Source: Phycisphaerales bacterium
Lineage (GTDB): Bacteria > Planctomycetota > Phycisphaerae > Phycisphaerales > SM1A02
Assembly (NCBI GenBank): GCA_029242715.1
Contig: JAQWTL010000033.1
Span: 1 to 64,000, forward strand
Direction of reading: 5' to 3'
DNA length: 64,000 bases
Shown here: piece after piece, positions 3,256 to 6,944 of the stretch
Layout of the letters: each line of letters opens with the position of its first letter
Position numbering within the stretch: the stretch's first letter is position 1
Notes under the pieces: generated by a model
Databases searched by the model: none
Seen by the model: only the letters and a program-made list of their open reading frames with translations
What the model was told of the DNA's origin: nothing
Made by a program: the position numbers and the translations under genes

Positions 3256-3969
3256 TCAATCATCTGGCAGTACATCTTCCAGCCGAGGCCAGCCAGTCCA
3301 GGCCACAGGCCTCGCCTGTTGTTCGGCCAATGAAGCCAGATAGGCCTCCCTGGGCACTTCGATTGCTCCAAGGCTCGCCATGTGATCTGACGTGAACTGC
3401 ACATCCAGCAGCCCAACCTTGATCTGCTTCAGATGGGCCACTAGCCACACCAGGGAGACCTTTGAAGCATCAGTGCCACCTTGCTCAGGAAGTGAGAACA
3501 TCGATTCGCCCATGAATACCCCTCCAAGCAGGACCCCATAGAGCCCCCCAACCAGGACACCATCCAGCCAGGCTTCAACGCTATGGGCCAGGCCACGACG
3601 ATGCAGTTGGCCGTAGGCCTTGATAAATCGCTCATCGATCCAGGTCTCGGTGCCCGAAGCGCGGGGAGCCGCACAGGCACGCATCACGTCTTCAAATGAC
3701 GTATCGGCCAGGATCTCGAAGCGACCAGAACGAACCCGCCGGGCCAGGCTGCCAGAAACATTGAGGCCGTCCAGGGGCAGGATGCACCTTGGATCAGGGT
3801 TGTACCAGTCCACATCCCCGTTCGTGGGATCAGACATCGGGAAGTACCCTTCCCGGTAAGCGGCCAGCAGGATGTCAGGCTCAATGACAGTCATGACATC
3901 TGTACGATACGGGCCGTTTCCCATGTGAGCTGACAGGAATCGATGCATGACACTGGCAATCTCAGTCAT
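3256..3969 (-). CDS. aat: Leucyl/phenylalanyl-tRNA-protein transferase
   Basis: Transfers Leu or Phe from aminoacyl-tRNA to N-terminal Arg or Lys of proteins, marking them for ClpS/ClpAP (N-degron pathway). The sequence has the family landmarks: ILLAAYREGYFPM near the N-terminus, WYNPDPRCILPL, TWIDERFIKAYGQLHRRG, HSVEAW, GGLYGVLLGGVFMGESMFS and LLDVQFTSDHMASLGA. The start is uncertain. The ATG at 3969 has an upstream AGGTGG and gives 237 residues, but then the 5' end overlaps the divergent glycosyltransferase by 23 bases. Starts at 3948 or 3894 are also possible, and the one at 3894 would still begin just before the first conserved motif. The function is clear from the motifs. Confidence 0.93.
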   Translation of the reverse strand: MTEIASVMHRFLSAHMGNGPYRTDVMTVIEPDILLAAYREGYFPMSDPTNGDVDWYNPDPRCILPLDGLNVSGSLARRVRSGRFEILADTSFEDVMRACAAPRASGTETWIDERFIKAYGQLHRRGLAHSVEAWLDGVLVGGLYGVLLGGVFMGESMFSLPEQGGTDASKVSLVWLVAHLKQIKVGLLDVQFTSDHMASLGAIEVPREAYLASLAEQQARPVAWTGWPRLEDVLPDD

Positions 3970-4762
3970 CGTCACCACCTACAACCGCCCAGATGCCCTG
4001 GCTGCGACCCTTCGGGGCCTTGCCGCCCAGGCAGATCGGCAGTTCGAGGTCATCGTTGCGGATGATGGCTCGACAAGCGAAACCAGTGATTTCATTCGCG
4101 AAATCCAGCAATCCTTCCCCGTTCCGCTCCAGCATGTCTGGCATGCCGACCAGGGGTTCCGTGCCGCTGCCATTACCAATCGCGCCATTAACCAGTCAAC
4201 AGGTGACTACATCGTCCTCATGGACGGAGACTGCATTCCACGGTCTTGTTTCATCAACTGGCAACGCAAACTGGCTCAGCCAGGTTGGATGGTCGGGGGC
4301 AACCGGATCCTGCTGGAAGAGGATTTCACTCGACGGATCCTGGAAGAAGAACTGCCGGTTCATCTTTGGAAACGCAACCAGTGGATCAAACCTCGCCTCC
4401 GTGGCTGGACCAACAGGATGCTGCCCATACTTTTCACTCTTCCAGACGGCCGTTGGCGATGCAAGAGGCCACGAGACTGGCGATCTCTGCGAACCTTCAG
4501 CATGGCCGTTCACCGCGAAGACCTGTTCAACGTCAATGGACTAGATGAAGCCTACACCGGCTGGGGATCGCAGGACTCGGACCTGATCATCCGGCTGATG
4601 CACTCTGGGGTTCGAGTCAAAAGTGGACGCCACGCCTCCCCTGTTCTCCACCTCTGGCATCCTGCCTTATCCAGAGATGATGCTGCCGGAAACCGCACAG
4701 AACTGGATGAAGTCATCAAAAGCCACCGTATCAGAGCCCGGAAGGGCCTCCTGGATCAATGA
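3947..4762 (+). CDS. Family 2 glycosyltransferase with galactosyltransferase-like C-terminal part
   Basis: Predicted cytosolic or membrane-associated GT-A transferase that uses a nucleotide sugar, probably for surface polysaccharide. The 271 residues open with the GT2 signature AISVIVTTYNRPDAL. The metal/nucleotide site D93-G-D95-C follows, and near residue 205 comes W-G-S-Q-D-S-D-L, the W-G-x-(E/Q)-D-x-D-L motif of the Glyco_transf_7C type. There are no convincing transmembrane segments. The ATG at 3947 is preceded by AGGA at about 3933. It shares bases with one possible aat start on the other strand, so the aat promoter must lie inside this gene. Acceptor and donor cannot be told from sequence. 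It is the only glycan gene nearby. Confidence 0.85.
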   Translation: MTLAISVIVTTYNRPDALAATLRGLAAQADRQFEVIVADDGSTSETSDFIREIQQSFPVPLQHVWHADQGFRAAAITNRAINQSTGDYIVLMDGDCIPRSCFINWQRKLAQPGWMVGGNRILLEEDFTRRILEEELPVHLWKRNQWIKPRLRGWTNRMLPILFTLPDGRWRCKRPRDWRSLRTFSMAVHREDLFNVNGLDEAYTGWGSQDSDLIIRLMHSGVRVKSGRHASPVLHLWHPALSRDDAAGNRTELDEVIKSHRIRARKGLLDQ

Positions 4763-4776
4763 AAGGCTTTAGAGGC

Positions 4777-4806
4777 TTGATCAGCCACCCCCCTGCACAT
4801 TACAAT
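4777..4806 (+). promoter_or_regulatory. Sigma70-like promoter for the RNA candidate and tRNA-Gln
   Basis: TTGATC at 4777-4782 and TACAAT at 4801-4806 are separated by 18 bases, a good match to -35 and -10 boxes. Transcription would begin near 4813, directly before the first strand of the terminal helix of the RNA candidate. No coding frame begins nearby. Confidence 0.5.
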
Positions 4807-4814
4807 CTTCCCCT

Positions 4815-5050
4815 TCCTCCACTGAGAGGGCCGTCGGTGAGGCTCGTGCATACGAGCGGCGCCGCATGGGGCACCAGGTCGCGGCTGACAGGTGCTCCCG
4901 CCTCTGGAGGGTCCAGCCGCGGCCGCGCCGGGTGAATCACGCCCGACGTCGAGACCGCGCGAGTTCGAAGTGGTCGATCTTCGTCATGAAGTTCGACACG
5001 AGTTCGGTGGTCCGACGGCACAGGCCATGGACCGACAATCCAGTGTTTTA
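4815..5050 (+). ncRNA. Candidate structured non-coding RNA of unknown class
   Basis: A non-coding, locally GC-rich stretch of about 235 bases between a promoter-like pair and a TTTTAT run (5046-5051). Its ends pair: 4820-4824 with 5041-5045, and 4833-4838 with 5031-5036. Internal helices include 4842-4847/4852-4857, 4868-4875/4891-4898, 4904-4908/4912-4916, 4973-4982/4988-4997 (one mismatch) and 5009-5013/5029-5033. The 4880-4887 loop is perfectly complementary to 4914-4921, which would form a pseudoknot that excludes the 4904-4916 hairpin. I found no signature of RNase P RNA, tmRNA, SRP RNA or 6S RNA. It could also be a long leader of the tRNA-Gln/glmU transcript. Confidence 0.45.
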
Positions 5051-5071
5051 TGTTTCGACGTGTCTCCACAT

Positions 5072-5143
5072 TGGCCCGTGGTGTAATCGGTAACACACCT
5101 GTTTTTGGTACAGGCATTCCAAGTTCGAGTCTTGGCGGGCCAG
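5072..5143 (+). tRNA. tRNA-Gln(TTG)
   Basis: Complete cloverleaf of 72 bases. The acceptor TGGCCCG pairs with CGGGCCA and the discriminator is G. The D stem is GTGT/ACAC. The anticodon stem CCTGT/ACAGG encloses loop TTTTGGT with anticodon TTG. The T stem CCAAG/CTTGG encloses TTCGAGT. CCA is not encoded. The following gene starts 38 bases downstream, so the tRNA is probably cut from a transcript shared with glmU or with the RNA candidate upstream. Confidence 0.95.
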
Positions 5144-5181
5144 TTTACTTTTCTTCTTTCGAGTCCCCACAATCCCCAACC

Positions 5182-5964
5182 ATGTCTGACACTCAACCAA
5201 TCCAACCTGCCTCCATCATTCTTGCCGCCGGCAAGGGAACCAGAATGGGCAGCGACCTGCCAAAGGTTCTCCACCCCGTCTGCGGACGACCGATGCTGCA
5301 CTGGGTGGTGGATGCCGTACGAGCCGCAGGCTCCAGGAAGATCCTGATGGTTGTCGGTCATGGAGCGGACCTTGTCCGGGACTCCTTTGGAGATGACACA
5401 TCGGACCTGGAATTCATCCTCCAGGAAGAACAGAAAGGCACAGGTCATGCTGTGCTGGTCTGCCGTGAAGCTCTGGGGGAATTCACTGGTGACAGCTTCG
5501 TGCTGGCCGGTGACGGTCCCCTCATCCGCGCTGAAACCCTTCGGACATTGGCAGCGCACCATGCCAGCAGAAATGCCCTGGCAACCCTTGCCACTTCGAT
5601 TCTGGAAGATCCCACCGGATATGGCCGGATCATCCGGAACGAATCCGATCGCTTCGTAGCAATTGTCGAGCACCGCAATGCCACTGATGCACAGAGAGCG
5701 ATCTGCGAGGTCTATCCCAGCTATGCCTGCTTCAACACTCCAGACATGATGCAGCGGCTTGAAAACCTGGATCCTGATTCAGATTCCGGTGAGTACTACC
5801 TCACCTCGATTCCAGGGCAGATCCAGCAAGAGACCGATCGAGTCGAGGTCGTTGCCGCCGTACCAGCAGAAGATGTCCTCTCAATCAACACACCTGAACA
5901 GCTTGCGGCAGTCGATGCCGTGCTTCGCGAGCGATTGTCCAACGGCGCGGAGGTCGTGTCGTGA
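5182..5964 (+). CDS. glmU: UDP-N-acetylglucosamine pyrophosphorylase, GlmU N-terminal domain only
   Basis: Uridylyltransferase that joins UTP and GlcNAc-1-phosphate to UDP-GlcNAc for cell envelope synthesis; cytosolic. Residues 14-22 carry LAAGKGTRM, followed by DLPKVLH (K28). Then come QEEQKGTGHA (81-90), A-G-D111-G-P-L-I at the metal site, G-Y-G-R-I-I and the closing SINTPEQL. The protein stops at 260 residues, just where the left-handed beta-helix acetyltransferase half of bifunctional GlmU (about 455 residues) would begin. There is no frameshifted remainder, because prs starts at once. I chose the ATG at 5182; an upstream in-frame extension runs through the tRNA. The acetyltransferase step must be supplied by another gene. 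Confidence 0.9.
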   Translation: MSDTQPIQPASIILAAGKGTRMGSDLPKVLHPVCGRPMLHWVVDAVRAAGSRKILMVVGHGADLVRDSFGDDTSDLEFILQEEQKGTGHAVLVCREALGEFTGDSFVLAGDGPLIRAETLRTLAAHHASRNALATLATSILEDPTGYGRIIRNESDRFVAIVEHRNATDAQRAICEVYPSYACFNTPDMMQRLENLDPDSDSGEYYLTSIPGQIQQETDRVEVVAAVPAEDVLSINTPEQLAAVDAVLRERLSNGAEVVS

Positions 5965-6944
5965 ATAGAGTCGACCTCGATCACCTGAAGATCTTCGGAG
6001 CCCGTTCCGGGGAAAGCCTGGCCGGATGCATGTCCGAGTATCTCTCGCTACCACTGGGTCAAGCCGATACCGAACTGTTTCCTGATGGCGAGTTGATCGT
6101 CCGAGTTGAAGAGGATGTTCGTGGCCGTGACTGCTTCGTAGTCCAGTCGACGTGCAATCCGGTCAACGCCAACCTGATGGAACTGCTCATCTACATTGAC
6201 TGCCTCAGGCGAGCCTCGGCGCAGCGCATCACAGCCGTCATCCCTTACTTTGGCTATGGACGACAGGACCGCAAGGCCTCAGGTCGTACTCCGATCACAG
6301 CCAAGCTCGTAGCCAACCTGATTACTGCCGCTGGTGCCGATCGGGTTCTCTGCATGGACCTGCATGCAGCCCAGATCCAGGGCTTCTTCGACATCCCCGT
6401 TGATCACCTCTCAGCCATGACCGTGTTCTGTGATTACTTCACAAGCATCCGTGATCAACTGGGAGATCTTGTCATCGTGTCACCTGATGTCGGCAACGTG
6501 AAGGTCGCCAATGCATATGCCAGCTTCCTGGATGCCGATCTTGCCATCATCGACAAGCGACGTGAATCGGGCATGAAAGTGGCTTCTCGAAACCTGATCG
6601 GAAGCGTCAAGGGCCAGACCGTGCTGATGGTCGATGACATGATCTCGACAGCTGGCACCATCTGTGAGGCCGCCAACCTGGTCATGGCGGAAGGTGCCAA
6701 GCAAATCATCGCCGGGGCCACCCACCCGGTCCTGGTCGGACTGGCCATGGACCGCCTGCAGGAAGCCCCCTTCAAAAGGATCGTCGTCACCGACACGATT
6801 CCCGACAACGGCCGTCTGGATCCGATCCGTGACCGCCTCGTCAAACTCTCGGTCGCACCCCTGATGGGTGAGGCCCTTCACCGAATTCATCATGACATGT
6901 CCATATCCGCGCTGTTCCAGCGTGCTACCGGAACAAAGAGATAG
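5961..6944 (+). CDS. prs: Ribose-phosphate pyrophosphokinase (PRPP synthase)
   Basis: Makes PRPP from ribose-5-phosphate and ATP for nucleotide, His and Trp synthesis. The 327-residue length is typical. Motifs seen are FPDGE (40-44), YGRQDRK (99-105), D133-L-H-A-A-Q-I-Q-G-F-F, the flexible-loop I-D-K-R-R (197-201) and the PRPP loop VDDMISTAGT (224-233). The GTG start overlaps the glmU stop as GTGA, so the two are translationally coupled; glmU-prs-rplY-pth is a common bacterial order. No unusual residues were noticed. Confidence 0.96.
   Translation: MNRVDLDHLKIFGARSGESLAGCMSEYLSLPLGQADTELFPDGELIVRVEEDVRGRDCFVVQSTCNPVNANLMELLIYIDCLRRASAQRITAVIPYFGYGRQDRKASGRTPITAKLVANLITAAGADRVLCMDLHAAQIQGFFDIPVDHLSAMTVFCDYFTSIRDQLGDLVIVSPDVGNVKVANAYASFLDADLAIIDKRRESGMKVASRNLIGSVKGQTVLMVDDMISTAGTICEAANLVMAEGAKQIIAGATHPVLVGLAMDRLQEAPFKRIVVTDTIPDNGRLDPIRDRLVKLSVAPLMGEALHRIHHDMSISALFQRATGTKR

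Follow-up and report, generated by a model that had tools for sequence, protein, structure and literature searches.

Genomic Context of the RNA

The window discussed here is the whole stretch of DNA that was analyzed, 64,000 nucleotides from a Phycisphaerales bacterium. The gap between its glycosyltransferase gene (3947-4762) and its tRNA-Gln gene (5071-5144) carries one sigma-70-like promoter, and no terminator-like site was found within this gap before the tRNA. The initial annotation of the sequence had placed a new structured RNA between the promoter and tRNA-Gln, and this proposal is borne out by covariation, by the distribution of the RNA among genomes, and by the lack of a corresponding Rfam family. 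The features of the locus are as follows:

4777-4806, + strand: sigma-70-like promoter, with -35 TTGATC at 4777-4782 and -10 TACAAT at 4801-4806, conserved in relatives
4813-4922, + strand: structured RNA core, from P1 to the first motif (match of covariance model R2 at 4801-4922, and covariation)
4815-4821/4905-4911, + strand: helix P1 (covariation in aligned relatives)
4827-4831/4900-4904, + strand: helix P2 (covariation in aligned relatives)
4835-4864, + strand: helix P3, with base 4835-4839/4860-4864 and apical stem 4842-4847/4852-4857
4868-4875/4891-4898, + strand: helix P4 (covariation in aligned relatives)
4880-4885, + strand: motif CGCGGC of the P4 loop (L4), a pseudoknot strand (conservation in 61 sequences)
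4916-4922, + strand: first partner motif GCCGCGG, forming pseudoknot 1 with 4880-4885 in families f1-f5
4929-4945, + strand: hairpin P5, CGGGTG-AATCA-CGCCCG, of variable sequence between relatives
4955-4959, + strand: second motif CCGCG, which could instead pair with the P4 loop or with the first motif
5071-5144, + strand: tRNA-Gln with anticodon TTG, which invariably follows the RNA as the next gene
5182-5964, + strand: GlmU-like uridyltransferase of 260 aa, covering just the N-terminal half (GlmU model matches)
5961-6944, + strand: prs, ribose-phosphate pyrophosphokinase (model matches)

The TTGATC/TACAAT pair, which had been described as promoter-like, has 9 of 12 matches and an 18-base spacer, where 0.2 such sites are expected from shuffles. 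It is also conserved in relatives, with a promoter score of at least 8 of 12 found just 5' of the core at 82% of 61 loci vs. 1.7% of shuffled copies. The conserved promoter likely places the RNA at the 5'-most position on the tRNA-Gln-glmU-prs transcript.

The gene order downstream is strict. At all 61 loci of the alignment (A3), a tRNA-Gln(UUG) gene lies immediately downstream on the same strand, as it does at 10 of 10 further loci beyond A3, and it is followed by a GlmU-like gene at 59 of the 59 loci where this could be tested; prs, rplY, and pth come next wherever the length of the locus allows. As to position, the suggestion of a leader for tRNA-Gln and glmU therefore stands. A single transcript is likely because just 37 bases part the end of tRNA-Gln from the start of glmU in the window. 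The spacer between the RNA and the tRNA is unconserved and ranges from 52 to 350 bases across loci. A search of the window's genome with the tRNA-Gln sequence returned one copy, the sole tRNA-Gln(UUG)-like gene found. The GlmU-like protein itself matches the uridyltransferase half of GlmU models and is without the acetyltransferase half.

Comparative Evidence for a Conserved Fold

Folding of the lone sequence is no proof of a functional RNA because the reverse complement does equally well, the stability against shuffles being z = -2.4 for the segment and z = -2.3 for the reverse strand. The decisive evidence is instead the comparison with relatives. BLASTN found the segment in 25 of 101 genomes, with a deeply conserved center at about 4858-4922, and the aligned, oriented copies have in common the promoter, conserved strings, and a hairpin whose length varies. 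In a MAFFT alignment of 27 f1 sequences, which was not fitted to the structure even though the structure was chosen by viewing the same sequences, 92.5% of cells are paired vs. 41-51% when slid. Among 61 f1-f5 sequences, in an alignment fitted to the nested helices and hence biased in their favor, 93.9% of cells hold standard pairs (79.4% when shuffled, 41-51% when slid), and double-sided changes occur at 24 of 32 pairs, in 278 cells. Compensatory changes run through four nested helices, P1-P4, in many genera, and the alignment of relatives thereby confirms that the region has several internal helices, as first described.

In the resulting architecture, P1 is followed by P2, which opens into a three-way junction with P3 and P4, and the P4 loop engages in a pseudoknot. 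The apical part of P3 differs greatly in length between relatives. The complementarity of loop 4880-4887 to 4914-4921 had been recognized from the single sequence, and its CGCGGC/GCCGCG center proves near-invariant across the 61 sequences; support for this center consists of complementarity and conservation rather than covariation because it varies so little. The window's copy has all of the features by which we delimit the new family, i.e., P1-P2, the three-way junction, the P4-loop pseudoknot, and tRNA-Gln as the next gene, and it scores 104.8 bits with R2 at 4801-4922, as a member of the training set of that model. We are nearly certain that this is a genuine new RNA family.

The conserved part measures about 110-150 bases, beginning near 4813 and reaching about 4959. 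Its 5' end corresponds to the predicted start of transcription, which we infer from the -10 box and which falls at the first strand of P1. The start initially put near 4813 thus holds, and the 3' limit put at 5051 does not; close to the tRNA, no 3' end of the RNA is conserved. The outer helices that were thought to close the structure are likewise not kept. Pairing of 4833-4838 with 5031-5036 would engage 4835-4839, the 5' strand of the conserved P3, and its other strand, ACCGAC at 5031-5036, was seen in the window's own genus only; pairing of 4820-4824 with 5041-5045 is lost even in the near relative L002; and the trailing TTTTAT is unconserved. By eye, the second CCGCG opens a further hairpin in the window (4953-5012) of the form NNCC-GCG...GU-GGNN, shared by the window's genus and many f2 copies, for instance as GUGAACC/GGUUCAC at L111.

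Comparison with Known RNAs

Against Rfam 15 (4227 families) at the gathering score, the window matches tRNAs only, and no known family is matched at the RNA. When the segment was searched at E-values up to 5, the matches besides tRNA were at chance level, and ten relatives and seven more distant loci retrieved tRNA only, plus sub-threshold matches. The initial failure to find conserved strings of RNase P RNA, tmRNA, SRP RNA, or 6S RNA agrees with this, as none of them has an Rfam match at the locus. RNase P RNA and tmRNA lie on other contigs of the window's genome (G000), at G000:C11 (260.8 bits) and G000:C27 (130.4 bits), and the best match to small bacterial SRP RNA is at G000:C38 (39.9 bits, with a cut-off of 40). 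For 6S RNA (RF00013), no match was found in G000 at E 0.001, and none above the cut-off in any of the 13 genomes searched; a sub-threshold match in G006 is on a different contig from that genome's copy of the new RNA. These housekeeping RNAs resemble the new RNA in being single copy, widely kept, and compactly folded, and tmRNA and RNase P RNA also contain pseudoknots. 6S RNA is a long interrupted hairpin, whereas the new RNA has a three-way junction with a pseudoknot.

T-box leaders offer another comparison, since they too are leader RNAs with a tRNA theme and many members of the new family contain ACCGCG. In contrast to T-box leaders, the downstream gene here is a tRNA and not a synthetase. 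The T-box string, GGTGGNACCGCG, does not occur in the window's RNA or at any locus other than L155, which lacks a recognizable copy of the new RNA, and there is no T-box model match. At that f6 locus, an exact T-box-like string, GGTGGCACCGCG, occurs at L155:1528-1539, about 290 bases before tRNA-Gln, also with no T-box model match. Riboswitches with a three-way junction and a pseudoknot are alike in size, architecture, and candidate alternative pairings, but no model match to them was obtained and no expression platform was recognized here. To our knowledge, no riboswitch-like element has been described immediately before a tRNA gene.

A close parallel in kind is the set of orphan RNAs among the 104 candidate structured RNAs obtained from comparative genomics of intergenic regions (PMC2864571), which likewise have covarying helices, a fixed gene neighborhood, and a function that is not known. 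The only planctomycete motif named in the table of that work, Rhodopirellula-1 (Proteobacteria and Planctomycetes), is without an Rfam number and so is not comparable to the new RNA by model (PMC2864571). No published description of the RNA was found in the literature searched, in which coverage of subscription papers was limited. The novelty concerns the RNA family, since no known one fits.

Distribution among Genomes

From a sample of 400 genomes in the order, covariance model R1 was positive in 207, comprising nearly all f1 genomes and members of f2-f5, with E-values down to 1.7e-21 that are rough, as are those of all models here, due to shortened calibration. In nearly all cases, a positive genome has one R1 match, i.e., the RNA is single copy. 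In a sample of the class, R2 was positive in 59 of 397 genomes, from f1, f2, f4, and f5, plus genome G654 of another order (E 1.5e-5). G654 was recognized despite being outside the training set of R2, has tRNA-Gln and prs downstream, and looks intermediate between the forms of the RNA. In a sample of the phylum, the 19 positives among 392 genomes are all from the same order. With filters off, R2 gives clear matches at L141 and L144 and weak scores for the copies of g46; part of the R2 negatives are thus divergent rather than empty.

A pattern scan of GTDB gave a compatible picture, with the records of complete RNAs being planctomycete MAGs mostly named Phycisphaerae or Phycisphaerales. Further scan matches in Halomonas, Phaeobacter, Acidimicrobiales, and others lack tRNA-Gln and show no visible P4 loop or pseudoknot strand, and they appear to be due to chance. 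L128 (f6, E 0.0014) is without tRNA-Gln and was treated as false.

Two assemblies deserve comment. In G003, the RNA is split between contigs C36 and C40 (L006 and L026), which is probably why no full copy was found there by model. In G001, two differing copies (L004 and L027) occur in one MAG with 9% contamination, and L027 is probably contamination because the part of it that was compared matches L014 of G054 exactly.

Shorter and Divergent Forms

Six loci in other families of the class (L157-L162; f13, f18, and f20) have, upstream of tRNA-Gln, a shorter RNA with the same layout. P1 has 7-10 bp and a different sequence at each locus, P2 is present, and P4 starts with GGGG and ends with CUC or UUC. 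Within L4, a CGCGG-like stretch pairs with a strand 3' of the next hairpin (P5), the strands being UCGCGG/CCGCGA, ACGCGG/CCGCGU, UCGCAG/CUGCGA, and CCGCGA/UCGCGG. The pseudoknot is paired in 6 of 6, with double-sided changes at 3 of 6 pairs, in a small sample where the structure was drawn from the same six sequences that were counted. Model R3, built from these loci, recognizes neither the window's RNA nor other copies, and R2 gives E 0.16 on L157. Architecture, shared strings, and position make the six loci probable homologs of the window's RNA, and the homology stays unproven because the models do not join the two. The order tRNA-Gln-glmU-prs is also present in f13 and f20. At two f18 loci, tRNA-Gln lies directly before prs at a distance of about 100-150 bases, into which glmU does not fit.

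Other loci have diverged further. Four copies in g46 of f2 (L150, L151, L153, and L154) retain the P3 core and have a P4 loop without CGCGG but with an extra hairpin, the pseudoknot seemingly having been replaced or lost. At two f6 loci (L143 and L147), a degenerate resemblance to P2/P3 alone remains upstream of tRNA-Gln; both have an RNase P RNA within the same 3.2 kb stretch. In f6 genomes L146 and L155, tRNA-Gln precedes glmU-prs without a recognizable RNA.

Proposed Role as a Free RNA

Comparison of the aligned sequences establishes the helices, the near-invariant loop and its partners, the promoter, and the strict place before tRNA-Gln. From this arrangement, we infer a course of events in which the sigma-70-type promoter would transcribe the RNA as the first element of a tRNA-Gln(UUG)-glmU-prs-rplY-pth operon, cotranscribed with the tRNA and the genes that follow. 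The CGCGGC of the P4 loop would pair with a CCGCG strand shortly downstream to form the pseudoknot. RNase P, in forming the 5' end of the tRNA, would cut the leader from the transcript, and the stable product released, roughly 110-250 nt long, would be a free RNA working in trans, where it would probably be the RNA component of a ribonucleoprotein. Taken as a whole, i.e., a new RNA family with its own promoter, at the head of an operon, released by RNase P and active in trans, this account is the most likely of those considered, and our judgment on it is evenly balanced.

Several points bear on whether the RNA would act after its release. Control of glmU translation by the leader is hard to imagine because excision of the tRNA unlinks the leader from the glmU mRNA. 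The unconserved spacer looks more like what would surround a free RNA than like a fixed-distance expression platform. Linkage alone is no argument for a role in cis, as the trans-acting tRNA-Gln is equally strictly linked. Operon-head placement and two competing partners for one loop are equally expected of a cis-acting switch. A main role in trans following release would, on these sequence comparisons, have about even chances of being right.

Alternative Pairings and Rival Explanations

The main rival to the free-RNA reading is a cis-acting transcriptional switch, in which a riboswitch-like or protein-binding leader would set the amount of tRNA-Gln-glmU-prs transcript. A ligand or protein would select among three states (L4 with the first motif, L4 with the second motif, or the two motifs paired around P5) and thereby affect transcription elongation. 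We consider such a leader possible, at clearly less than even chances. The aptamer-like size, the three-way junction, and the constant place at the head of this operon all suit it, as does the behavior of the second CCGCG, which is found at 59 of 61 loci vs. 17.8 expected by shuffling and is retained even in very short leaders (L114 and L124). In f1-f5, the first motif lies 5' of P5 and the second 3' of it; L4 is able to pair with either, the motifs are able to pair mutually, and the minimum-energy fold of 4813-4962 joins the two. As the loop in L157-L162 pairs 3' of P5 with compensatory changes, the pseudoknot of these other families would correspond to the second motif, and we regard the first motif as a probable addition in f1-f5.

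The idea of a switchable structure thereby survives in altered form. The hairpin at 4904-4916 that was to compete with the pseudoknot exists in the window and is absent from its nearest relatives, where 4905-4911 forms the 3' side of P1, whereas the second CCGCG is a conserved candidate competitor for the loop. Against a cis-acting leader, mutual pairing of the motifs is partly automatic, because CCGCG is partly self-complementary, and, within f1-f5, no covariation with the loop was found for the bases flanking the second motif. For the first motif, one flanking base covaries weakly (p 0.008, uncorrected for relatedness or several tests). Moreover, neither a conserved terminator or anti-terminator nor a conserved pairing with a ribosome site was seen, the spacer is unconserved, and the first gene downstream is one that the cell should not shut down, as no other tRNA-Gln(UUG)-like gene was found in this genome. 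The two f18 loci exclude glmU as a common target because prs there adjoins tRNA-Gln. The more specific proposal that a leader switches two pseudoknots on one loop and thus controls an operon that opens with a tRNA gene is, in our estimate, doubtful.

Alternatively, the RNA could aid the maturation or expression of tRNA-Gln, by 5' shielding or by positioning RNase P, and have no role after cleavage. The exceptionless linkage to tRNA-Gln, at the A3 loci and the ten beyond them, is what such an aid would predict, but the distance to the tRNA ranges from 52 to 350 bases, L146 and L155 do without a recognizable RNA, and no family-wide complementarity to the tRNA was noticed by eye, and we therefore think this explanation unlikely. 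That a G+C-rich spacer merely folds by chance, as the modest excess of single-sequence stability over shuffles and the equal reverse strand might suggest, is refuted by covariation in four nested helices and by retention across families and is hardly credible.

Single-copy RNA families conserved over large groups of bacteria are usually important, and few of open function are known. The new RNA joins them with a precise fold, a fixed site before the sole tRNA-Gln(UUG)-like gene found, and a candidate choice between two pseudoknots. If the two-pseudoknot switch were true, the supply of tRNA-Gln would be tied to the synthesis of UDP-GlcNAc and PRPP.
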